Origin: Halorientalis litorea
Lineage (GTDB): Archaea; Halobacteriota; Halobacteria; Halobacteriales; Haloarculaceae
Length of the DNA: 64,000 nt
Direction: 5' to 3'
NCBI RefSeq assembly: GCF_023028225.1
Contig: NZ_CP095482.1
Coordinates: forward strand, 1,116,001 to 1,180,000
A program made the position numbers and the translations under genes. This document shows positions 32,818-43,815 of this stretch, in pieces (position 1 is the stretch's first letter; each line of letters starts with the position of its first letter). The notes under the pieces are model-generated. The model made no database searches and was not told the origin of the DNA. It saw only the letters and a program-made list of their open reading frames with translations.

Positions 32818-35800
32818 CTACCGTCCCGGTACCCCCTTATCCGAGCGTGCCGTTTCGGTCGGCAGACGCACGCACACCTCGGTCCCGTCCGGTCCGGTGT
32901 CGACCGATACGTCGCCGCCGGCCTGTCTCACGATTGTCCGGGCCATCCACAGGCCCAACCCCTGTCCGTGCCGGAGTGACGTCTCTTCACCCTTCTCGAG
33001 TACCTCGGCTTCCATCTCCGGCATCCCCGGACCGTCGTCGCTCACGCTGAGCTCGACCCACCCACCCTCCGGCGCGGCGAGTTCGATCTCAACTGTCGAG
33101 TGGTTCGACGCATCTATCCCGTTCTCGACCAGCTCACGGACCGCCTCGAAGGTCTCTACCGGAACTTGGGCCGACTCGCCATCCGGCACGTCGGTCACAA
33201 CCGTCGCATCGGGGTACGTGTCTTTGACCGAGTGTTCCACGTCCAGTAGCAGTGATTCGTACCCCGTCGTCGCCTGCTGTTTCTCCTGTTTCCCGAGTAC
33301 CTGCCGTATTTCCGATATCTTGTTGCTCATCGCGTCCCACTTGTCGAGCACCGTCTCTATCGTCTCGAACTGCTCGGCCCGGGCGTCCGCGTCCGCCGTC
33401 TCGGACATGAGCTGTGTCCAGCCGCGAATCTTGGTCAGGTCGTTTCGCATATTGTGCCGTAGTACCCGCTGCATGACCTCTAGATGCTGTCTGTACTGCT
33501 GTCGCGCGGTGACGTCACGACCCTCTGTGACGAGGAGGGAGACGGTGCCGTCCTCGTCGGTCACGGGTTTTATCGAGAAGTCTATCGTCGCGAGGCCGTT
33601 GGCACCGCGTGCCTCTGTCTCGTACCGGACGAACTCGCCGTTCGCAGCCCGGGCGATGGCGTCTCGGACGCCGTTTCTGGCCGTCTCGGAGTGTCCCCAC
33701 CACGGAGCCTCCGGGAGCGGCTTCCCAATGATACTGTCGCGTTCGACGCCTGCGAACTCGAGGGTCGCGTCGTTAGCTTCGGCGAGTGTGCCATCCGGTT
33801 TCAAGAGGCCCGTGAACTGGAACGTCTGGTTGAAGATGCTCTCGAACCGCCGGGCGCGCTCCGTGCGTTCGGTCACGTTCCGGAGGTAGACGAGTATCCC
33901 GTCGATAGCCTCGTCGTCGAGCATGTTTCGATAGTGGCCTTCGACGTTGAACCACCCGCCGTCCGGGGACGCGAGACGGCATTCGGCAGTGACGTCTTTC
34001 GCGCCATCGACACAGTCGTAGAACATCTTCAGTGCGTGTTCTCGCCCGTCCGGGTGGAGGTAGTCGAAGAGGTTCTCGCCGACGAGGTCGTCGGGGTCGT
34101 AGTCAAAGACCCGTTCGGCCGAGCCACTGGCGTACGCGACAGTGCCGTCCGCTTCGAGGATGGTCACTACGTCGTCGGACTCCTCGACGAACCGCTCGGT
34201 TCGGCGTCGCTGTCGGCGTCGGTCTGTCATGTCGCGGACAATCATCGCGTACCCACGGAACTCGCCGTCGTCGGCTTCGAGCGGCGCGAACTGAGTGTCA
34301 CCGTAGAACGTCGTCCCGTCCACACGAGCGCACTGCCCCTCGTGGGCACTCTCGCCGGCGATACGCGCCTGCTGGAGCAACCGTTCCGGCAGTCCCGACT
34401 CCCGGTCACTGTCGGGGTACAGTTCGGCCATCGCCATCCCGACGGCCGCCTCGGCGTCGTAACCGAACGTGTTCTCGGCACTGTCGTCCCACGTCTGGAT
34501 GGTCCCGTCCTCGCCGATGGCGAGAAACACGTACTCGTCGACACTTTCTGTCAGCAGACGGAACCGCTCGCGCTCGGCTCTCAGTTCCCGCTCGCGTCGT
34601 ACCTCCTCTGTCACGTCCTGTGCCAGCAGCAATCCGTGGGTCTCGGTCGACTGGCCGTCACTGTAGTCGACCGGAACGATCTGAATCCGGACTGTCCGGT
34701 CGTCGAGTTGGACCCGGCGGTCCGTGCGCTCGCCATCGAGGGCTGCTCGGGAGCGTGCCACGAGCTCGTCTCGGGCGTCGACATCGGGGAAGACCGTCCC
34801 CACAGCCATCCCGGAAATGTCCGACGCGTCGCGGTCGAACGCCGACAGGAGTTCGCCTGCGGCCAAGTCGTATTCGAGGTCCGTGTCGAACGTGAGAACG
34901 GCACCGTTCGGGATGTTCTCTGCGAGGCGCCGGTAGCGTCGTTCGTTTCGCTCGCGCTGTCGTTCCGCGTTCTTCCGGTCGGTGATATCCATCCCGGTGG
35001 CGAGGACCCGAGTCAAGTTCCCCTCGTCGTCGTACGTCGGGACGGCTCGCGTCCCGAGCCAGCGAACGGTGCCGTCGCCGTCGGTCGTCCGGAACTCATC
35101 GACCCACGACTCGCCGGTCTCGGTTATCCGCTCTAAGTTCTCCCGGACCCGGGCCCGGTCGTCCGGGTGGACCGTCTCTACGAATCCCTCGACGGATTCG
35201 ACATCCCGGCCGACGATGTCGACGAGTGTCTCGTTCCACGTTACTGTGTCCGTCTCCACGTCCCACTCTGCGAGGCCGGTGTTCGTCCCCGAGAGCGTCA
35301 GTTCGAGTCGTTGGCGCTGTTCTCGCAGGTCGTCGTGGGTCTCTCGTCGGTCCATCTCGTAGCCGATCCACTGTCCGACCAGACTGATGAACGACCGCTC
35401 GAACTCGTCGAAGGGGTCCGCACGGGGTTCGGTCGCGGCGAAGCACAGTGTCCCGTACAGGTCGCCACTGGCGGCGACATCAGCCCCGAGGTACGTCTCT
35501 AGCTCGAACGTCTCGTAGGCTGGGTCGTCCGCCCAACCGTCCTCGGTGGCGTGTATGAGTGCCATGGGCTCGTCTCGCTCTATCGTCTCTCGGCAGTACG
35601 ACTGTGAGAGCGGGACCGATTCGTCCGGCTGGAGGCGGTCGTGTGACCCGAAGCTGTCGACGATGGTCTGTGTGCCGGCCGCCGGTTCGGCGTCCGTCTC
35701 GATACGCGTCAAGAAGCCGTAGGGGAGGTCGAGATGGTCACTGACGGCGTCCAGAAGCATCGAAATCTTTTCCTCGAACGCCGTCTCGGGGTCGGTCGTG

Positions 35801-38640
35801 ACCTCGTAGACACGCTCTATGAGGTCGATTCTCGCCTTGTTCTGTCGTTCGCGCTGCTTGCGCTCCGAGATGTCCACGAAAAGGGCGTTCGTTCCGGTCG
35901 TCTCGTCTCGTCGCGGGACCGCACGCAGAAGCGTATCCACCTGTTCGCCGTTCGCGCCCAGGAGCCGTCGCTCGGCCACCTCGAACTCGCCCGTGAGTGC
36001 GTCCTCGTACCCGCCGCCGGTGAGTTTGGACGTGGACAGGGCGGTGTAGAAGTGTTCGAGCGGTTCTCCCACTATCTCTCCGCGGTCGTATCCGAGTCGG
36101 GTCCGGAACTGCTCGTTGCACGACGCTACGACCGCCTCTCCGTCGACTTCCCGTGTTTGGACGAACAGTAGCGGTCCGTGGCTCAGGAACTGTTGTAGCC
36201 ACTGGCTTCGCTCTCGGCGTTCGGTGACGTCCTGACTGATGCCGACGAAGTTCTGAACGGTCCCCTCCTCATCGGTGACCGGCGTGAGCGAGAGCCGCGT
36301 CCAGTACTCCGTTCCGTCTTTCCGGTAGTTACGGAGTTCGAGTGACACCGGCTCTTCGGCGTCGACGGCCTCGCGGAGCCGCGCTTCCTTCGCTGGGTCT
36401 GTGTTCGGTCCTTGGAGGAACCGCGGGTTGCGGCCGAGTACCTCCTCGCTGGTGTAGCCGGTCACGCGCTCGAAGCCGTCGTTGACGTAGACCAGTGGAT
36501 TGTCGGCCCGTGTCGGGTCGGTAATCTGGATGCCGACGGTAGCCTCGTTCATGGCCTGTTCTTTGAGTTCGAGTTCACGTTCCCGGGTCTGGCGTTCGGT
36601 TTCGTCGCGGACGGTACAGACGAGTCGCCCGTCCTCGACCATCGTCAGGGAGAGTTCGGCGGGAAACGTCGACCCGTCGGGTCGGCTCCCCGTCACCATC
36701 CCACGCCAGTAGCCGTCCGCCTCGAGCGTCGGGAACGCCTCCGCTTGAAGCCGTTCGACCTCGTCCTCGTCGTACAGTTCGCGCCACGAGTGTCCGAGCA
36801 GTTGTTGTTTGTCCTCGAAACCGTACATGTCCACGTGGGACTGGTCGATGAAAACGTACTCCCCGTCCTCGAGCACCGCGACGCCGTCCCTCGCCGATTC
36901 GATGGCCTGCTGGAACGACTCCAACTGTTGTCGCCGCTCGTTCCGGGCGGTAATGTCCCGGAGTACCCCGGCCGTCCCACGGAACTCGTCGTTATCGATC
37001 AGTGCAAGCTGGTTCTCGACGACCAGCCGGCTACCGTCGACCGTTTCGAGGGTGAACTCCGCAGTCGTCGACCGGTCGTCTGTGGCGAGCAGGTCCGCTA
37101 TCTGGTTGCGGATTCGTTCGACGTCCGAATCGTCCATCGTGGCCGACGGTCGCTTCCCGATTATCTCGCTGTCGTACCCGAACTCGCGTTTCGCCGCGTC
37201 GTTGACGAAAGTGAACCTGCCTTCGGTATCGAGCGCGTACACCGGGTCGTCGACGGCCTCGAGAATCGCTTCGTATCGCTCCAGTTCCTCGAACCGGTGG
37301 CGGCGTTCGATTTCTGTACCGACCCACTGTGCGACGAGTTTGGCGAACTCTCGTTCCCCCGGACTGAACGGCTCCGGTCGCGGTTTCGCCATCGAGAAGT
37401 TCACCGTTCCGTACGTCCTGCCGTCGACGACGACGGGCACTCCGATGTATGCACGGACGTTCTCCGCCGCCGGGTGACTCTCGTAGTCGGTATCCGCGGC
37501 ATCGGCGAACGCGAGCGTCTCGGTCGTCTCGTTGGCGAGCGTCGCGTGACACATCGTCTCTTGGAGTTCGTACACGGCACCGGCCCGGTGTGTCCCGGTC
37601 GCGTCGACGACGGCCTCGACCTCGTAGTCGTCCTCGTCTACGTGTGAGAGGATTCCCGTATCGAGGCCGAGATGGTCACACCCCAGTGACAGCAGTCGCT
37701 CGATTGTTTCGTCGAACGCCTCGGCAGCCACGGTGAGTTCGTTCAGTCGACGGAGTAAACCTGCGTCAAGCTTTGGCTCCGCCGCGGTTTGTCGTGGGTC
37801 CGTCTGTGTGGTGCGGGATAGCTCCTGCACTGTCGTGCGGACGTAGCTCGACCCGTCGACTTCCACCGTTGTACTCGTGAGTTCGACCGTCACGTCACTC
37901 TCGTCTGCACGTTCGAGGGTCGTTCTGAGTGGGTCCGGCGTCCCGGCGACGCTGGTGTCGAGATACTCTCGAACAGCCCCGGTTGCCGGTTCGTGAGCGA
38001 TATCGGCTACGTTTCTCCCCAGTAGCGTTTCGCGGTCGTACCCGGTCATCTCACGGGCCGCGGGACTGACCGCGACGATGACTCCGTCGTCGTCGCTGAG
38101 GAACGCGGCGTCGTCCGCCTCCTCGAACAACGCCCGGGCGGCGTGGTCTACCGACTGGTGCCCGTCGATACGAGCTAGTGCCGTTTCGAGGTGTGCTGCG
38201 ATGGCTTCGGTGACGGTTACCCCTTCGTCGTCTAGCTCTGCCGGGTCCGTGACACCGAGGTGTAACGTTCGGTTGCAGCCGGCGGGAACGAAGACTTCTG
38301 CCTCAGTGCTTCCCGGAGGGTCGGTGTCGACTGTCGCTTCGGGCGTCGCGTCGGCCGAGAGTTCGCCCCCGCGTTCGCCGGACTGCTGGATGACCGACTC
38401 CGGTATTCGGTCCGGCGCAGTAACCGGATTGTCCGAACTCCGGCCCGACGAGGCGAGGGTGGACACCGTGTCCGTATTCGAGTCGTAGTCACAGACGCTC
38501 ACGGCGGGTTGGTCGAACGCTGTCTCGGCCAACTCGACTGCACGAGTGACGGCGGCCGACACCGTCTCGGCCTGGCCGATCTCGGCCGACAGAAAGAGCA
38601 GCGAGGCAGAACTTGCAGAAGAGGGGTGAGTGTTTACCAT
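32818..38640 (-). CDS. Giant multi-PAS/GAF sensor histidine kinase with a Cys-less LOV-like domain
   Basis: A soluble 1,940-residue kinase with no transmembrane segment. Approximate order: N-terminal GAF-like (15-160), PAS1 (165-280), GAF (290-448), PAS2 (453-570), PAS3 (573-690), PAS4 LOV-like (693-810), PAS5 (813-930), GAF (935-1100), PAS6 (1110-1225), PAS7 (1234-1350), PAS8 (1358-1475), PAS9 (1483-1595), PAS10 (1597-1715), kinase core (1716-1930). Phospho-acceptor His1729 is in VLRHNMRNDL; N box RELVENGID (Asn1840), G1 SDDGPGM and G2 GQGLGLWMA are intact. PAS4 contains GRNPRFLQGPNTDPA (from 736): a LOV signature with Pro739 in place of the photoactive Cys. It is first in an operon with the Bat-type response regulator. 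The ATG at 38640 lies ~26 nt after a TATA box (leaderless). Confidence 0.9.
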   Translation of the reverse strand: MVNTHPSSASSASLLFLSAEIGQAETVSAAVTRAVELAETAFDQPAVSVCDYDSNTDTVSTLASSGRSSDNPVTAPDRIPESVIQQSGERGGELSADATPEATVDTDPPGSTEAEVFVPAGCNRTLHLGVTDPAELDDEGVTVTEAIAAHLETALARIDGHQSVDHAARALFEEADDAAFLSDDDGVIVAVSPAAREMTGYDRETLLGRNVADIAHEPATGAVREYLDTSVAGTPDPLRTTLERADESDVTVELTSTTVEVDGSSYVRTTVQELSRTTQTDPRQTAAEPKLDAGLLRRLNELTVAAEAFDETIERLLSLGCDHLGLDTGILSHVDEDDYEVEAVVDATGTHRAGAVYELQETMCHATLANETTETLAFADAADTDYESHPAAENVRAYIGVPVVVDGRTYGTVNFSMAKPRPEPFSPGEREFAKLVAQWVGTEIERRHRFEELERYEAILEAVDDPVYALDTEGRFTFVNDAAKREFGYDSEIIGKRPSATMDDSDVERIRNQIADLLATDDRSTTAEFTLETVDGSRLVVENQLALIDNDEFRGTAGVLRDITARNERRQQLESFQQAIESARDGVAVLEDGEYVFIDQSHVDMYGFEDKQQLLGHSWRELYDEDEVERLQAEAFPTLEADGYWRGMVTGSRPDGSTFPAELSLTMVEDGRLVCTVRDETERQTRERELELKEQAMNEATVGIQITDPTRADNPLVYVNDGFERVTGYTSEEVLGRNPRFLQGPNTDPAKEARLREAVDAEEPVSLELRNYRKDGTEYWTRLSLTPVTDEEGTVQNFVGISQDVTERRERSQWLQQFLSHGPLLFVQTREVDGEAVVASCNEQFRTRLGYDRGEIVGEPLEHFYTALSTSKLTGGGYEDALTGEFEVAERRLLGANGEQVDTLLRAVPRRDETTGTNALFVDISERKQRERQNKARIDLIERVYEVTTDPETAFEEKISMLLDAVSDHLDLPYGFLTRIETDAEPAAGTQTIVDSFGSHDRLQPDESVPLSQSYCRETIERDEPMALIHATEDGWADDPAYETFELETYLGADVAASGDLYGTLCFAATEPRADPFDEFERSFISLVGQWIGYEMDRRETHDDLREQRQRLELTLSGTNTGLAEWDVETDTVTWNETLVDIVGRDVESVEGFVETVHPDDRARVRENLERITETGESWVDEFRTTDGDGTVRWLGTRAVPTYDDEGNLTRVLATGMDITDRKNAERQRERNERRYRRLAENIPNGAVLTFDTDLEYDLAAGELLSAFDRDASDISGMAVGTVFPDVDARDELVARSRAALDGERTDRRVQLDDRTVRIQIVPVDYSDGQSTETHGLLLAQDVTEEVRRERELRAERERFRLLTESVDEYVFLAIGEDGTIQTWDDSAENTFGYDAEAAVGMAMAELYPDSDRESGLPERLLQQARIAGESAHEGQCARVDGTTFYGDTQFAPLEADDGEFRGYAMIVRDMTDRRRQRRRTERFVEESDDVVTILEADGTVAYASGSAERVFDYDPDDLVGENLFDYLHPDGREHALKMFYDCVDGAKDVTAECRLASPDGGWFNVEGHYRNMLDDEAIDGILVYLRNVTERTERARRFESIFNQTFQFTGLLKPDGTLAEANDATLEFAGVERDSIIGKPLPEAPWWGHSETARNGVRDAIARAANGEFVRYETEARGANGLATIDFSIKPVTDEDGTVSLLVTEGRDVTARQQYRQHLEVMQRVLRHNMRNDLTKIRGWTQLMSETADADARAEQFETIETVLDKWDAMSNKISEIRQVLGKQEKQQATTGYESLLLDVEHSVKDTYPDATVVTDVPDGESAQVPVETFEAVRELVENGIDASNHSTVEIELAAPEGGWVELSVSDDGPGMPEMEAEVLEKGEETSLRHGQGLGLWMARTIVRQAGGDVSVDTGPDGTEVCVRLPTETARSDKGVPGR

Positions 38641-38982
38641 GCAATACTATATGATCATGTAGTAATAAATCCCCCGTCACCAGTTTTTATTATTGATTCC
38701 AGTGGCCCGGCCGCTGAGTGGCTTGAATCCAGCTTCGAGTGCTTTCAAACCGGGTTTTTTACGTATACCTTCCCCGGAGCGGGCGAACTCCGCCCCTAAT
38801 CTCACTTCTGAAACTTCCTTATCGGCGGCCAGAGCCGTATCTTTTTCAGTACGCTTGATACATTTCCACCGCTTCGAACGACTACCCGAGACTACTGACA
38901 ACGAGTAATGTGTCACAGATTCGGGCCGCGGTGGCGGCCCACACGCTCACGTGTTTGTACGAGATTATGGTTTGCGCGGAGA
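38641..38982. other. AT-richer intergenic region between kinase operon and tRNA-Thr
   Basis: Base composition is clearly lower in G+C than the flanking genes. Besides the kinase promoter, a 79-codon minus-strand ORF (38677-38916) is open; its Lys-rich, low-GC3 composition is unlike neighbours and no homologue was recognised. No other gene is seen. Confidence 0.45.
38646..38670 (-). promoter_or_regulatory. Promoter and 18-bp near-palindromic operator of the kinase operon
   Basis: On the minus strand a TATA box (ATTTATTA, 38663-38670) lies about 26 nt before the ATG at 38640. Between them, 38646-38663 (plus strand ACTATATGATCATGTAGT) is a palindrome matching its own reverse complement at 16 of 18 positions, with core ATGATCAT. 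A dimeric regulator bound here would block transcription start. Confidence 0.6.
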
Positions 38983-39053
38983 GCCTAGGCCGGAATTTGA
39001 ATCCGGGGTCTCGTCCTTACCAAGGACGCGCTTTACCGCTAAGCTACCCAGGC
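38983..39053 (-). tRNA. tRNA-Thr (anticodon GGT)
   Basis: A 71-nt cloverleaf on the minus strand: acceptor GCCTGGG/CCTAGGC with one G-T pair, D arm GCTT...AAGC, anticodon stem CGTCC/GGACG with loop TTGGTAA (anticodon GGT), variable loop AGACC, T arm CCGGA-TTCAAAT-TCCGG. CCA is not encoded and no intron is present. It borders the mobile-element remnant on the right. Confidence 0.95.
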
Positions 39054-39269
39054 ACTCAGGGTGCGTACACCCCGCTTTTCCGCCTTCTGCGCTCGAATTT
39101 ACTACACAGCCGTATAAGAATGTGGTGAAAGCCACCGACTGTGCCGTACCGTGACGTGCCAAAGCAGTAATTGAAACCCTTCCGAAACTCGCCTCCTCGA
39201 TGAAGCGAACCCCAATCGAAGCGTAGATTTAGTTGTCCATCAGGCAATACTGAGAGCGACGAAGCTCGG
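39054..39269. other. Intergenic sequence upstream of tRNA-Thr
   Basis: No gene is seen. A minus-strand TATA-like TTCTTATACG at about 39110-39120 may drive the tRNA. The lower G+C here continues into the element remnant. Confidence 0.4.
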
Positions 39270-40055
39270 TTAGAAATCCGAAAGTGAAGCTACTTCGCCA
39301 CCCTGTTTGTTTTCTTCAATCTGGACATCCGTATCCTCTACGGGGTTATGTGACACCTCGTACCCCTCCTCGGTTTCTCGAATATCCGAGACAGAGTAGA
39401 ACTGAATCGGTTTCTCTTGCTTCGTCGTGACGGGGAAGTCGTAGTTATCAGCCTGATATTTAAACTCCTTCCCCTCGGGCAGACGCTCCTCAACGAACTC
39501 TTTGTGGTCGTCTAACCGTTGTTTGACGACTTCACGCGAGTATTCTGGAATATCTTCGACTCGTTGCTTGAACAACTGCACGAATTCCTCATCCAGTTCA
39601 TATCCGACGGAGTTTCGCCCCGCGACCATCGCGGCGAACGAGGTCGTCCCTGTTCCCCAGAACGGGTCAAGCACAGTATCTCCATAGACAGAATACATAT
39701 TGATGAGTCGATACGGAATCTCAAATGGGTACGCCGCAGAACGCTCTCTTAATTCGCTTTGTCCAAGAGCTTGAAGCACCCCTTTAATCTCCATCCAAAC
39801 GTCGGAAAACCACTGGTTCCTTTCTTCGCAAAAGTACGCCGAATTGTAGCGTCGTTCCGACCCCGGCTCGAAGGTTCGACTATCCTTCCCGTTACGGAAG
39901 ACGAGGATATACTCGTGTTCAAGCGTTACGTAGGCGTTGGGCGGGAGCATACCTGAACCCATAAACTTGGCTCCCGAATTGACGGGTTTGCGCCACAGAA
40001 GTTCAGGTAGAGGCTCGAATCCGAGGTCTTCGAAAGCGTTGATAATTCGAGACAT
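39270..40055 (-). pseudogene. N-terminally truncated DNA (N4-cytosine/N6-adenine) methyltransferase
   Basis: The 261-codon frame matches the second part of a beta-type DNA methyltransferase: [33 protein letters not shown], and the SAM-binding motif I region [19 protein letters not shown] followed by VGYELDEEF. In this motif order the catalytic TSPPY (motif IV) precedes this region, and it is absent. An in-frame TAA lies only four codons upstream of the ATG at 40055, and the integrase fragment ends 94 bp further upstream, so the first ~90 residues are deleted rather than frameshifted. Base composition is lower in G+C than neighbours. It is probably inactive, although the ORF itself is intact. 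Confidence 0.8.
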
Positions 40056-40148
40056 ATGCGAGGATGATTAGTGTAATCCCCATTACTCTACCGACACCCG
40101 CTATTTCGACCAATCTCTGACGAAAAATGTGAAAGACTGCTAATCAGC

Positions 40149-40463
40149 CTACCAGATTTGTTCTACCGCCGACGACCGCGTTTCCGAGTCTGAATGTAGA
40201 TACTTCATCGTCGTCGTCACGCTCTTGTGGCGAAGTTGCTCCTTGGCATAGTGTGGCCCGACGTGATTCGCCCAATGAGTCGCCACGCCGTGCCGAATCG
40301 AGTACCACGTCACGTCCTTGTTCTTCGGGATTGAGACGTTCCCCTCCTCGATGAGTCGGCGCAGGAGATAGTTACACGACTTCGAGCTGTATCGCGTGCC
40401 CTTCTTCGTGAGCCACAGCTCGTCGCGGTCTTGGTACTTCTCGTAGATCGCAGTTCCATCGAA
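40149..40463 (-). pseudogene. C-terminal fragment of a tyrosine recombinase/integrase
   Basis: An open frame of 104 codons without a start, bounded upstream by an in-frame TGA at 40464-40466. It encodes the catalytic end of a phage-type integrase: VTWYSIRHGVATHWANHVG (box II Arg) and LRHKSVTTTMKYLH (His/Lys and the nucleophilic Tyr), ending SSAVEQIW. All N-terminal core-binding sequence is missing; chromosomal DNA of the next gene begins within about 20 bp. Together with the methyltransferase it marks the remnant of an integrated plasmid or virus beside tRNA-Thr. Confidence 0.85.
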
Positions 40464-40480
40464 TCAGAGGTCAAAACGAT

Positions 40481-41200
40481 TCAGTGGTCGGCGGAGGTAC
40501 GCGCACCGCCGGGCGGCGTCGGGTCCGTCCCAACCAACCCGGCCAGTCGCTCAACCGTCGCCTCCGCGAGCGCGGTTTCGGCGGCCGGCAGGTCGGCGGT
40601 GCCGACGGCCAGACCGGTAGCGAACTCCCGCAGACGGGCGGGCGCGCTCCCGCCGGCGGCAGTCGTCCCCGCGACGACGGCCAACTCGAACACGTCGGCT
40701 TCGAGATTCCCGTCGAGCGACGGGTCGTCGGTCTCCCGGCGGACGGTCTGGTCGCCACCGAACGACCGGACGACGGCGACGGCGGCCTCGGCGGCCTCCG
40801 TTCGGGCCAGCAGGTAGAACCCGCGTGCCACGAGGATGTCGGCGACGAGGACGTCCACGTCGGCGGCCGCCGCCGAAGCGGACTTCCCGGCCGTCTCGCC
40901 GTTCGTCGTCGCAGTCTCTCCCGGTGGCCACGCTTCGGGTCCCCCGTTCCACGGTTCTTCGTGTGCGAGTGTCCGTGTCAGCCGGAGCCCCTCGTAAATG
41001 AGTTGGACGGCCGCGGCGCGCTCGGACACCCCGTCCAGGCCGACTCGCTCGTCGACCGCACGCGCACTGAGTAGCGTCAGCGCGCCGGGCGCCATCGACC
41101 CACCTTCGAGGCGTTGCTCGACGCGCTCGAAGAGGCGGGCAGGGTCGACATCGTCGACGGCTTCCAGCGCCGCTTGCCGGACCGCAGCGGCTTCCTCCAT
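40481..41200 (-). CDS. Conserved haloarchaeal helical protein
   Basis: A 239-residue, Ala-rich, predominantly helical protein starting MEEAAAVRQAALEAVDDVDP. No catalytic motif was recognised; the pattern ARGFYLLARTEAAEAAVAVVRSFG recalls the helical bundles of polyprenyl synthetase-like proteins but lacks their DDxxD motifs. It is divergent from the enoyl-CoA hydratase gene and ends just beside the truncated integrase, yet appears complete. Confidence 0.6.
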   Translation of the reverse strand: MEEAAAVRQAALEAVDDVDPARLFERVEQRLEGGSMAPGALTLLSARAVDERVGLDGVSERAAAVQLIYEGLRLTRTLAHEEPWNGGPEAWPPGETATTNGETAGKSASAAAADVDVLVADILVARGFYLLARTEAAEAAVAVVRSFGGDQTVRRETDDPSLDGNLEADVFELAVVAGTTAAGGSAPARLREFATGLAVGTADLPAAETALAEATVERLAGLVGTDPTPPGGARTSADH

Positions 41201-41260
41201 TGACACGTAATAGCGGCGGGAAAGGCAAAGACCTTTGGAAACGACAGACCACGCCCACCC

Positions 41261-41947
41261 GTGATTACCACTGCCCGCGACGGGGATGTTCTCGTCGTCA
41301 CGCTCGACCGACCCGACCGGCGGAACGCGCTCACGCTCGACGGCCTCGACGCCCTCGAAACGGCCGTCGCCGACGCCGACGCGCCCGTCGTCCTGCTTCG
41401 CGGTGCCGGTCCGGCGTTCTGTGCCGGGGCCGACCTCGACGTGGTCGCCGACATCGACCCCGAGGACGCAGAGCCGTTCGTCCGACAGGGCCAGCGCGTC
41501 GCCCGGAACATCGAGACGGCGGACAGCGTCGTCGTCGCCGGCGTCGACGGGGCGGCGCGGGGCGGTGGCGTCGAACTCGCCTTGGCCTGTGACCTGCGAG
41601 TCGCAACCGACCGCGCCACGTTCGCCGAGAACGGCGTCGCGCTCGGCCTGTTCGGCGCGTGGGGCGGCACCGTCCGTCTCCCGCGCATCGTCGGCGAGGG
41701 CGAGGCGATGGACATCGCACTCTCCGGGCGAACCCTCGACGCCGAAGACGCGCTCCGAACGGGACTCGTCTCCCGAATCGTCGACGACCCGCGGACGGTC
41801 GCACAGTCTATCGCGGCCAACGACGAGCGGGCACTGAGCGTGCTGGCGGCGCGACTGCGCGACGACGCCGACGCCCAGACCCAAGAGCGACGGGAGGCAG
41901 AGGCGTTCGCGGACTTGCTCGCACACGCCGACATCGTGGGGTCGTGA
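41261..41947 (+). CDS. Enoyl-CoA hydratase/isomerase family protein
   Basis: A 228-residue crotonase-fold protein. LDRPDRRNALT at the N terminus, the oxyanion-hole segment AFCAGADLDVV, and DGAARGGGVELALACDLRVA are diagnostic. The catalytic-region residue in AENGVALGLFGAWGGTVRLPR fits hydratase/isomerase members. The GTG at 41261 starts the usual ITTARDGDVLVVTLDRP. Substrate unknown; likely fatty-acid or amino-acid catabolism. Confidence 0.86.
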   Translation: MITTARDGDVLVVTLDRPDRRNALTLDGLDALETAVADADAPVVLLRGAGPAFCAGADLDVVADIDPEDAEPFVRQGQRVARNIETADSVVVAGVDGAARGGGVELALACDLRVATDRATFAENGVALGLFGAWGGTVRLPRIVGEGEAMDIALSGRTLDAEDALRTGLVSRIVDDPRTVAQSIAANDERALSVLAARLRDDADAQTQERREAEAFADLLAHADIVGS

Positions 41948-42018
41948 GTCGAGCGACCTGTCGCGAGAACCGAAAAGGTTGAATCACCGACTGTCCTACC
42001 AAGTCGAGTCAGGGGACA

Positions 42019-42681
42019 ATGCCGGACTGTAACTACTGTGGGGAGTCGTTCGGGGACGAACAGTCGTATCTTCAACACTTACACGACGCCCACGAGGAGT
42101 CGGAGTTGAGTCGTATCGACCGCCGTCGCGTCGCGTCGGAAATCGAGGACAGTGGGGGTGGGTTCCCGACGGGGCCGGTCATTCTCGTCGGCCTCGTCCT
42201 GTTCACCCTCGCGATTACGGTGTACGTCGCCTTCTTCCTCGGCGGGGGCAACGGCAGTGCCGCGGCCGACAATCTCGCCGGGGACATCCAGCAGACGCCG
42301 ACCGGCGTCGGAACGGTCCACGAACACGGCCCAATCGACGTGACTATCGACGGCCAGGCACTCGACTTCAGCCGCGGCGAGTTCCAGAACCCGCGGGAGT
42401 ACCCCGCCTTCCACTTCGAGGGCGGGAACGGCGACATCTGGCACGTCCACGCCCGAGGCGTCACGCTCGAATACGCGATGTCGACGCTCGGCATCCGGGT
42501 CAACGAGACAGCCGTCGCCTACGACGGAACGGTCTACCGGGACAGCGACCCGAACACCTCGGTCACCGTCACGGTGAACGGCGAACCGGTCGACCCGCAG
42601 ACGTACGTCCTCGACGGCACGGAGTCGACCGCCGACGCCGGACAGGGCGACTACATCCGCATCGAAGTGACCACGCAGTGA
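42019..42681 (+). CDS. Membrane-anchored protein with N-terminal C2H2-like zinc finger
   Basis: A 220-residue protein. Residues 4-25 (CNYCGESFGDEQSYLQHLHDAH) form a CxxC...HxxxxH zinc finger; one transmembrane helix follows (~52-75), then a ~145-residue extracytoplasmic domain with FHFEGGNGDIWHVHARGVTLEYAM. By topology the finger would be cytoplasmic and the globular domain outside. The combination suggests a membrane-tethered factor, but no partner or target is evident. Start ATG 42019. Confidence 0.7.
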   Translation: MPDCNYCGESFGDEQSYLQHLHDAHEESELSRIDRRRVASEIEDSGGGFPTGPVILVGLVLFTLAITVYVAFFLGGGNGSAAADNLAGDIQQTPTGVGTVHEHGPIDVTIDGQALDFSRGEFQNPREYPAFHFEGGNGDIWHVHARGVTLEYAMSTLGIRVNETAVAYDGTVYRDSDPNTSVTVTVNGEPVDPQTYVLDGTESTADAGQGDYIRIEVTTQ

Positions 42682-42700
42682 CGGGGCGGTCGCCCCGTCC

Positions 42701-43549
42701 TCAGTAGAGCGGCGTCGGCCCGGGCGGCATCCGCCGTTTGTGCGCGCTTCCCTCGTAGAGTTCCCGGACCCTATCGACGGTCGCCGGGTCGACGCCGAGC
42801 GTCTCCGCCGTGACCGACTTCGAGAGCCGGCCGTCGATGTGGAGTGCCAGAATCGAGTCCAGCGTGTCGTAGTCCATCCCGAGTTCAGTCTCGTCGGTCT
42901 GGCCCGACCACATCTCCGCGCTGGCGGTCTTCTCCGCGAGGTCGTCGGCCACGCCGAGGTGTTTCGCCAGCTGCCGGACCTGCCCCTTGTAGAGGTTCGC
43001 GATGGGGTTGCAGTCGACGGCCTGGTCGCCGTACTTCGTGAAGTACCCCACCAGAGCCTCGGCGCGGTTCCCCGTCCCCAACACGATGGCGTCCTCGCGG
43101 TTCGCGTAGAAGTAGTTGAGGACCCCCCGAGCCCGGACCCGGACGTTCCCGACGGCCATCCGAAGCGCGTCGGTCTCGGTGTCGGAGTCGGAGTCGATGC
43201 CCGGCACCGCGTCGAGGAACGCGTCCACGATGGGTTCGATTTCGACGACGTCGTAGGACATGCCGAGCGTCTCCGCGACGTGTTCGGCATCGCTCATGTT
43301 CTCCTCGCGGTTGGCCTCGCTGGGCATCACGAGCCCGTGGACGTTCTCGGCCCCCAGTGCCTCCACGGCGAGATAGGCCGTCGTCGTGCTGTCGATGCCC
43401 CCCGAGAGCCCGAGAATCGCCGTCTCGACACCCGCCGCGTCCACTTGGTCGCGAATGAACTCCGTGATGTGCTCGCGGTGGGCCGTCAACTCTGCCTCCG
43501 AGAGGGTCAAATCGAGCGGTCGGTCCGCGCGCGCTATCGCCTGTGACAT
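42701..43549 (-). CDS. nadE: NH3-dependent NAD+ synthetase
   Basis: A 282-residue adenylate-forming synthetase converting deamido-NAD to NAD+. The PP-loop LGLSGGIDSTTTAYLA is intact; GTGNRAEALVGYFTKYGD and CNPIANLYKGQVRQLAKHL are family signatures. No glutaminase domain is present, so ammonia is the likely nitrogen donor. The C terminus RRMPPGPTPLY is typical of the archaeal form. Monocistronic, convergent with the zinc-finger membrane protein. Confidence 0.95.
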   Translation of the reverse strand: MSQAIARADRPLDLTLSEAELTAHREHITEFIRDQVDAAGVETAILGLSGGIDSTTTAYLAVEALGAENVHGLVMPSEANREENMSDAEHVAETLGMSYDVVEIEPIVDAFLDAVPGIDSDSDTETDALRMAVGNVRVRARGVLNYFYANREDAIVLGTGNRAEALVGYFTKYGDQAVDCNPIANLYKGQVRQLAKHLGVADDLAEKTASAEMWSGQTDETELGMDYDTLDSILALHIDGRLSKSVTAETLGVDPATVDRVRELYEGSAHKRRMPPGPTPLY

Positions 43550-43815
43550 ACACGAACAGAGGGACGGAACGGACTAATACCCTCTCATCGCGTGAACGGT
43601 TCGAGGTCGTTGCCGCTCGGGAGTGAACACGCGTCCAGAACGTGTGCCGGTCGCTCACCGAACACAAAGCGGTGACCGGTGGGTGTCGGGTGACAACAGG
43701 GACCGCGCCGGTCGGGAATCGAACCGGATGAAGATGGGCGGCCTCGCCCCGCTCGGCCGCTACGACTTCCGGGGTTCAATCCTTGGCCTGCTCGTTCGTC
43801 GCTTCGCTCCTCACT
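43550..43815. other. Intergenic region with a partial tRNA 3' end
   Basis: No protein gene. Position 43705-43725 matches the 3' end of the adjacent tRNA-Gly at 19 of 21 positions, same orientation. The remainder is GC-rich without structure I can name. Confidence 0.5.
43705..43725 (-). repeat. Partial copy of a tRNA 3' end (acceptor plus T arm)
   Basis: On the minus strand it reads as a T-loop TTCGATT plus acceptor strand CCGGCGC, differing from the tRNA-Gly 3' end at two positions. The 5' half of a tRNA is missing. It resembles the att duplications left by tRNA-targeting integrases, or a decayed tRNA copy. Confidence 0.55.

Follow-up and report, generated by a model that had tools for sequence, protein, structure and literature searches.

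Most elements that insert into tRNA genes restore the 3′ half of the gene and so leave the host promoter in charge. The pTN3-like plasmids of Thermococcus use the tRNA 5′ half as their attachment (att) site, and the rebuilt tRNA is cut off from its original promoter (PMC5495485); a review has the rebuilt pTN3 tRNA expressed from the integrase promoter and calls the use of the 5′ half by pTN3-like integrases "unique in archaea" (PMC8371274). Insertion into the 5′-distal part of a tRNA gene is also described for CalSub-E1 of a thaumarchaeon (PMC6563490). For HF1-like haloviruses (HF1, HF2, HRTV-5, Hdep-prov1), integrases and an element-borne attachment site (attP) in the 3′-half arrangement are reported (PMC7230728). 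Here we describe a locus in Halorientalis litorea, a haloarchaeon with a genome of ~3.2 Mb (G000). The window, meaning the whole 64,000-nucleotide stretch that was analysed (contig NZ_CP095482.1, positions 1,116,001 to 1,180,000), contains upstream of tRNA-Thr(GGT) what is probably the remnant of a small integrative element of the 5′-half kind. Coordinates below are those of the window.

The comparison with these systems runs in both directions and leans on two fuller relatives of the element, L073 from Halogeometricum limi and L072 from the metagenome-assembled genome SW_8_68_21. Like the HF1-like haloviruses, the element has an integrase of the same family, the target tRNA-Thr(GGT) and an overlapping crossover region; along its whole length the L073 integrase is 67% identical to the HRTV-5 enzyme. 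Unlike those viruses, whose attP carries the tRNA 3′ half, it carries the 5′ half and a promoter, and L072 and L073 have only an integrase and small cargo. The att sites enclose 3.7 kb in L072 and 2.3 kb in L073, and Pfam, run on five of the frames there, recognised no tailed-virus gene; both loci may be remnants themselves. As in pTN3, the tRNA 5′ half is common to the left and right attachment sites (attL and attR) of L072 and L073, the window retaining only the copy inside the tRNA gene. Unlike pTN3, whose integrase is disrupted by integration, L073 keeps its integrase whole and outside the att block. CalSub-E1 resembles it in insertion site and occupies a tRNA-Ser gene in another host phylum. 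Integration by way of the 5′ half is thus already known from pTN3; what differs here is the whole integrase and the haloarchaeal host. A literature search, in which most hits were left unopened and subscription journals were thinly covered, found no description of 5′-half integration in haloarchaea.

Architecture of the remnant and its fuller relatives

L072 and L073 share one order of parts: the DUF7114 gene, a native promoter motif, the 5′ half of tRNA-Thr, the integrase, cargo, a promoter that we call promoter B, and a complete tRNA-Thr(GGT) gene. These parts, their order and both att blocks can be read from the sequences themselves. The displaced half comprises tRNA positions 1–41 in L072 and 1–45 in L073. 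The order implies integration inside the tRNA gene, with the element supplying the 5′ half and the promoter. We estimate a probability of roughly 0.85 that the window holds the remnant of such an element, which recombined in the anticodon region of tRNA-Thr(GGT) and later suffered deletions while its promoter was retained. The extent of the element in the window is drawn from the promoter, since it matches L072 (96.7% identity over the 60 bp of 39100–39159, to sequence directly upstream of the L072 tRNA) and differs from the native promoter type. By this comparison the element would extend from close to tRNA position 41 (window 39013) as far as ~40452, so that 39013–39160 appears to be element-derived, and the crossover would fall in or near the anticodon stem-loop. 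The original prediction had placed the boundaries at 39054 and 40480 with the tRNA as a mere neighbour, and this has to be revised: the element starts inside the tRNA gene and ends at ~40452. The features are as follows.

38981–39053, minus strand: tRNA-Thr(GGT), apparently a rebuilt gene, with the 5′ part (39053..39013) probably element-derived and the 3′ part host-derived.
39013–39053, minus strand: probable surviving attachment site (element-borne tRNA 5′ half); the 5′ blocks of the relatives, 1–41 and 1–45, overlap the 3′ blocks of sister proviruses.
39054–39160, minus strand: probable right end of the element, from which the rebuilt tRNA gene would take its promoter and leader; matched in L072, without counterpart in five empty sites of the genus.
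39057–39074, minus strand: predicted leader hairpin just before the tRNA (minimum free energy −11.2, p 0.01 against mononucleotide shuffles in the window).
39113–39129, minus strand: element promoter motif, TATA-like TTCAYCASATNYWTRTA, found in front of tRNA-Thr in no fewer than 15 of the 392 Halobacteriales genomes.
39270–40052, minus strand: DNA methyltransferase fragment, residues 108 to the end of a 366-residue protein, without TSPPY.
40053–40148, no strand: 96 bp separating the gene fragments, outside all matches to L072, L073, G004, G035, G047 and G095 except that the G004 match extends 2 bp into it.
40149–40452, minus strand: C-terminal fragment of a tyrosine integrase, approximately residues 300–399 of 399.
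40453–40480, no strand: deletion junction, where the N-terminal part of the integrase is missing together with the native promoter and the displaced tRNA 5′ half.
40481–41200, minus strand: DUF7114 gene (PF23426, E 2.4e-77), the chromosomal flank outside the element, adjoining tRNA-Thr in empty relatives.

The genus gives the state of the site before insertion. It is empty in five of eight genomes, the window's own included in the eight (G001, G002, G003, G005 and G007); there no more than some tens of bases separate the end of DUF7114 from the tRNA, the native motif (T/C)CGAAAC...TAAAGAC stands between them, and promoter B is absent. G006 has 138 bp in the gap, the tRNA-proximal part of which aligns with the window. 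G004 has an insert of ~3.2 kb that encodes an HNH-repeat protein and the C-terminal part of an integrase, which matches the window at 90% identity over 171 bp and is interrupted by a TnpB-type gene. These empty sites, together with the longer insertions in G004, L072 and L073, bear out the original prediction of a decayed integrated element at tRNA-Thr. A repeat of tRNA sequence at attL and attR had also been proposed; it is present in L072 and L073, and the window retains just the one inside the tRNA gene, neither a second tRNA 5′ half nor the native promoter motif being found in the gap. In G004 the bases upstream of promoter B recur beside DUF7114 with 13 of 14 matching (L063 1693–1706 and 4758–4771), possibly a trace of a second, tandem element.

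The two genes are truncated as had been described from the sequence. The integrase frame (40463..40149, minus strand) matches PF00589 at positions 89–170 of 172 (E 1.6e-8) and phrog_1 (E 1.5e-16), and relative to full-length relatives it has lost approximately residues 1–299 of 399. Its first possible start is a GTG at codon 51 and its first ATG is codon 86 of 104, so the claimed lack of a start holds in effect. The methyltransferase frame (40067..39270, minus strand) matches PF01555 only at profile positions 61–220 of 221 (E 1.4e-26), in agreement with a missing TSPPY half, and residues 1–107 of 366 are lost by comparison with full-length relatives. The truncations do not face each other, as had been thought, across a single internal deletion. 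Both genes are on the same strand and each lacks its 5′ end; therefore two losses are needed, one at the junction of integrase and chromosome and the other at the junction of methyltransferase and integrase. The unmatched 96 bp at the latter holds a short inverted repeat, GATTAG ... CTAATC. Full-length forms of both genes, which the original prediction proposed to look for, are present in relatives.

The L073 integrase, at 399 residues, is whole in the integrated state, and the att block ends ~180 bp before it; the L072 integrase is 90.4% identical to the window's over 302 bp in nucleotides, a match well above chance, and has one in-frame stop. The cargo of L073 is two small frames with no Pfam match. 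In L072 it consists of a restriction endonuclease of the ScaI type (PF09569, E 1.4e-45) together with a methyltransferase (PF01555, E 6.3e-54).

Low G+C had been offered as a mark of the region. The G+C of 39054–40452 is indeed 51.5%, lower than the 63.7% of the left-hand gene (32818–38646) and the 68.8% of 40481–43573. However, the intergenic stretch on the opposite side of the tRNA (38647–38980) is equally low at 51.2%, so the value has little diagnostic weight and we dropped it as evidence of an element.

Integrase relatives of the opposite half type

At 16 other loci with an integrase of the same family (L060, L074–L078, L080 and nine from the G genomes, L182–L190), a complete tRNA-Thr lies upstream of the integrase on the same strand. 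The displaced copy runs from tRNA position 27, 28 or 29 to 72 or 73 in G104–G107, and five free-virus records (G097–G099, G101, G102) carry positions 16 or 22 to 73; in L075 the complete and partial copies are on different contigs. This is the arrangement published for the HF1-like haloviruses (PMC7230728). The 5′ and 3′ blocks share tRNA positions 29–41, the anticodon stem-loop. Because of this overlap, a single crossover region could serve both half types. A classical 3′-half insertion was considered for the window and rejected, the full tRNA being downstream of the integrase and not upstream.

In the integrase tree the window, L072 and L073 group together with support 93/86, with the window row filling 26% of the columns and the root not firm. 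In L073 a degenerate tRNA 3′ half directly adjoins the displaced 5′ half (positions 1–57 at 89%), which suggests descent from a 3′-half ancestor. Halorientalis pallida (L078) has an integrase of the 3′-half type downstream of the tRNA and, upstream, promoter B with a 33-residue integrase scrap; both halves of its tRNA-Thr gene may be of element origin.

The integrase fragment as a query gave 11 loci in the scan of genome contigs and, in viral contigs, six copies to which it is 71–77% identical. With the full-length L073 integrase, the viral contigs gave one pattern hit and none confirmed. Elsewhere in G000 no integrase of the same family was found at E ≤ 1e-60.

Spread of promoter B and of the methyltransferase

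A pattern of promoter B plus the tRNA start was found in 14 of 392 Halobacteriales genomes, distributed over 9 of 95 genera, and a control pattern in 0 of 392. G095 was missed by the pattern and was added by hand as the fifteenth genome; with L072 and H. pallida, 17 promoter B loci were examined. In all of them the promoter falls in the same distance class from the tRNA. The displaced tRNA 5′ half is present at two (L072, L073) and was not found at 14, and G378 ends with its contig and is undecidable. The contents of the gap vary. Six loci are bare scars with no larger insert (G006, G064, G065, G070, G089, G284), three (G035, G047, G095) retain the methyltransferase at full length, with no integrase match at E ≤ 1e-4, and TnpB-type genes are present in G004, G038, G220 and H. 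pallida. In the gaps of G038, G047, G064, G220 and H. pallida, the start of the native promoter, TCGAAAC, survives without its TATA part and without the tRNA 5′ half; what follows TCGAAAC is the same in G038 and G220.

The window and G047 are 93.5% identical in nucleotides over 995 columns (39060–40052), taking in the methyltransferase, the downstream sequence, the promoter and the leader. Because the element is this similar while the adjacent DUF7114 proteins are only 40% identical, the unit has moved between genera; no other sign of its mobility is as strong. For the methyltransferase, dS (synonymous divergence) between window and G047 is 0.128 and dN/dS (the ratio of nonsynonymous to synonymous divergence) is 0.14.

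Predicted leader stability averages −8.1 for the 17 promoter B leaders and −3.1 for 19 native leaders, and p ≤ 0.05 against mononucleotide shuffles is reached by 9 of the 17 and 0 of the 19.

Haloarchaeal CTAG orphan methyltransferases (cHG U, HVO_0794) are described in PMC6471742. G000 retains an intact relative of the methyltransferase elsewhere in its genome; the G047 protein is 57% identical to that relative and 55–78% identical to copies sited elsewhere in the examined genomes. A methyltransferase search of viral contigs gave two pattern hits, none confirmed, and the genome contigs were scanned with the integrase only. In G035 (G035:C1:1151427-1152524, L173) and G095 (G095:C48:925-2022, L180), the gene at the element position is the sole family member found at E ≤ 1e-40, G095 being a draft of 94% completeness; G047 has both the element-position gene and another of the family. 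In G035 and G095 the orphan methyltransferase that is widespread on chromosomes may have given way to the element copy. The G095 gene (L180:526-1623) is a mosaic, 72–78% identical to G047 in its first ~360 bases and 87–95% in the remainder, which suggests recombination between a resident copy and an element copy.

Proposed mechanism, alternatives and meaning

The mechanism that we propose is as follows. The integrase would recombine a circular element with the anticodon region of the host's tRNA-Thr(GGT) gene, the only copy known in G000 (one was found, with 40 of 68 first-look candidates scored in one search and 2 of 9 in another). The insertion would rebuild the tRNA 5′ half and its promoter from the element and displace the native promoter with the original half. 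While the element is circular, transcription from its promoter would pass through the half tRNA and on into the integrase; after insertion the same promoter would drive the tRNA. Later deletions would have taken the native promoter, the displaced half, about three-quarters of the integrase and the first 107 methyltransferase residues, the element promoter and 5′ half staying because the tRNA needs them. The circular form, catalysis by the integrase and selection as the cause of promoter retention are steps that we infer; transcription of tRNA-Thr from the element promoter, and the exchange of that promoter between circle and chromosome, are suggested by the order of the parts.

Several observations weigh against this proposal. 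Both att sites are kept at only two loci, and one of these (L072) has the in-frame integrase stop. The 15 genomes were found by way of promoter B, so its retention in them is ascertainment and no proof of selection. Outside G047 and L072, promoter-plus-tRNA identity falls to 79–91%, the tRNA included. The promoter-plus-tRNA pattern had 0 hits in viral contigs and no circular form or attP was found; among plasmids there were just two relatives, one partial at 65% and the other distant at 39%, and the partial relative, of Haloferax gibbonsii, is uninformative on attP. Covariation in the leader hairpin is 0.162 against 0.240 for a slid control, and the number of pairs changed on both sides was reached by 110 of 500 shuffles; the hairpin stands as a prediction with weak covariation support.

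The alternatives fare worse against the same loci. Insertion could have been intergenic, between DUF7114 and the native tRNA promoter, so that 39054–39160 is host sequence and the direct repeat ACCGTGACGC(G/A)CCA in G004 is the att site. G006, which has a single similar copy of the motif and no insert, and the two near-identical copies (13/14; L063 1693–1706 and 4758–4771) that flank the G004 insert fit such an event. That repeat was first adopted as att and was dropped on the displaced tRNA half in L072 and L073: there it is the far side of the element that carries the native promoter motif and a tRNA 5′ half. With promoter B unlike the native promoter, and shared with G047 in a block far more similar than DUF7114, we consider intergenic insertion quite unlikely. 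If instead the two gene fragments formed a useful module conserved under selection, the 265 open codons of the methyltransferase fragment and its dN/dS of 0.14 would be accounted for; yet the full-length genes of G035, G047 and G095 have dN/dS of 0.08–0.13 on the same columns, and purifying selection before a recent truncation suffices. None of the other 16 promoter B loci shows both truncations together (G378 is not judgeable), and the host has its intact methyltransferase relative elsewhere, so that a conserved module is highly improbable. Plasmid or virus fragments could also have come to lie beside the tRNA by illegitimate insertion or some unrelated rearrangement, with no site-specific integration; such an origin would suit two broken genes separated by 96 bp unmatched in six compared loci. 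It is barely credible against 17 loci with promoter B in the same tRNA distance class, two of which keep the displaced half, and against the common junction inside the tRNA gene in L072 and L073.

With the 5′-half element preferred, we lean toward a broader view: that this integrase group inverted the tRNA half it carries, the 3′ half of the related viruses giving way to the 5′ half and a promoter, that the host's only tRNA-Thr(GGT) became dependent on that promoter, which has a leader of its own, and that decay of the element leaves the promoter as a permanent, domesticated scar, with such swaps spread over at least nine genera. Promoter scars of this kind are easily overlooked, only an odd upstream region being left. 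In the Islander catalogue of 3919 islands, a 5′ fragment of the tRNA gene (tDNA) remains at 159, which makes the configuration a known minority. Detection there depends on a length of at least 2 kb, an integrase frame and a piece of tDNA (PMC4383910), so a remnant like that in the window, without a displaced half, would escape it. One integrase family and one target here provide empty sites, 3′-half proviruses, 5′-half elements, half-decayed elements and bare scars. The series makes it testable how an integrase lineage switches the half that it uses, and whether a needed RNA gene can have its promoter replaced for good by that of a mobile element.
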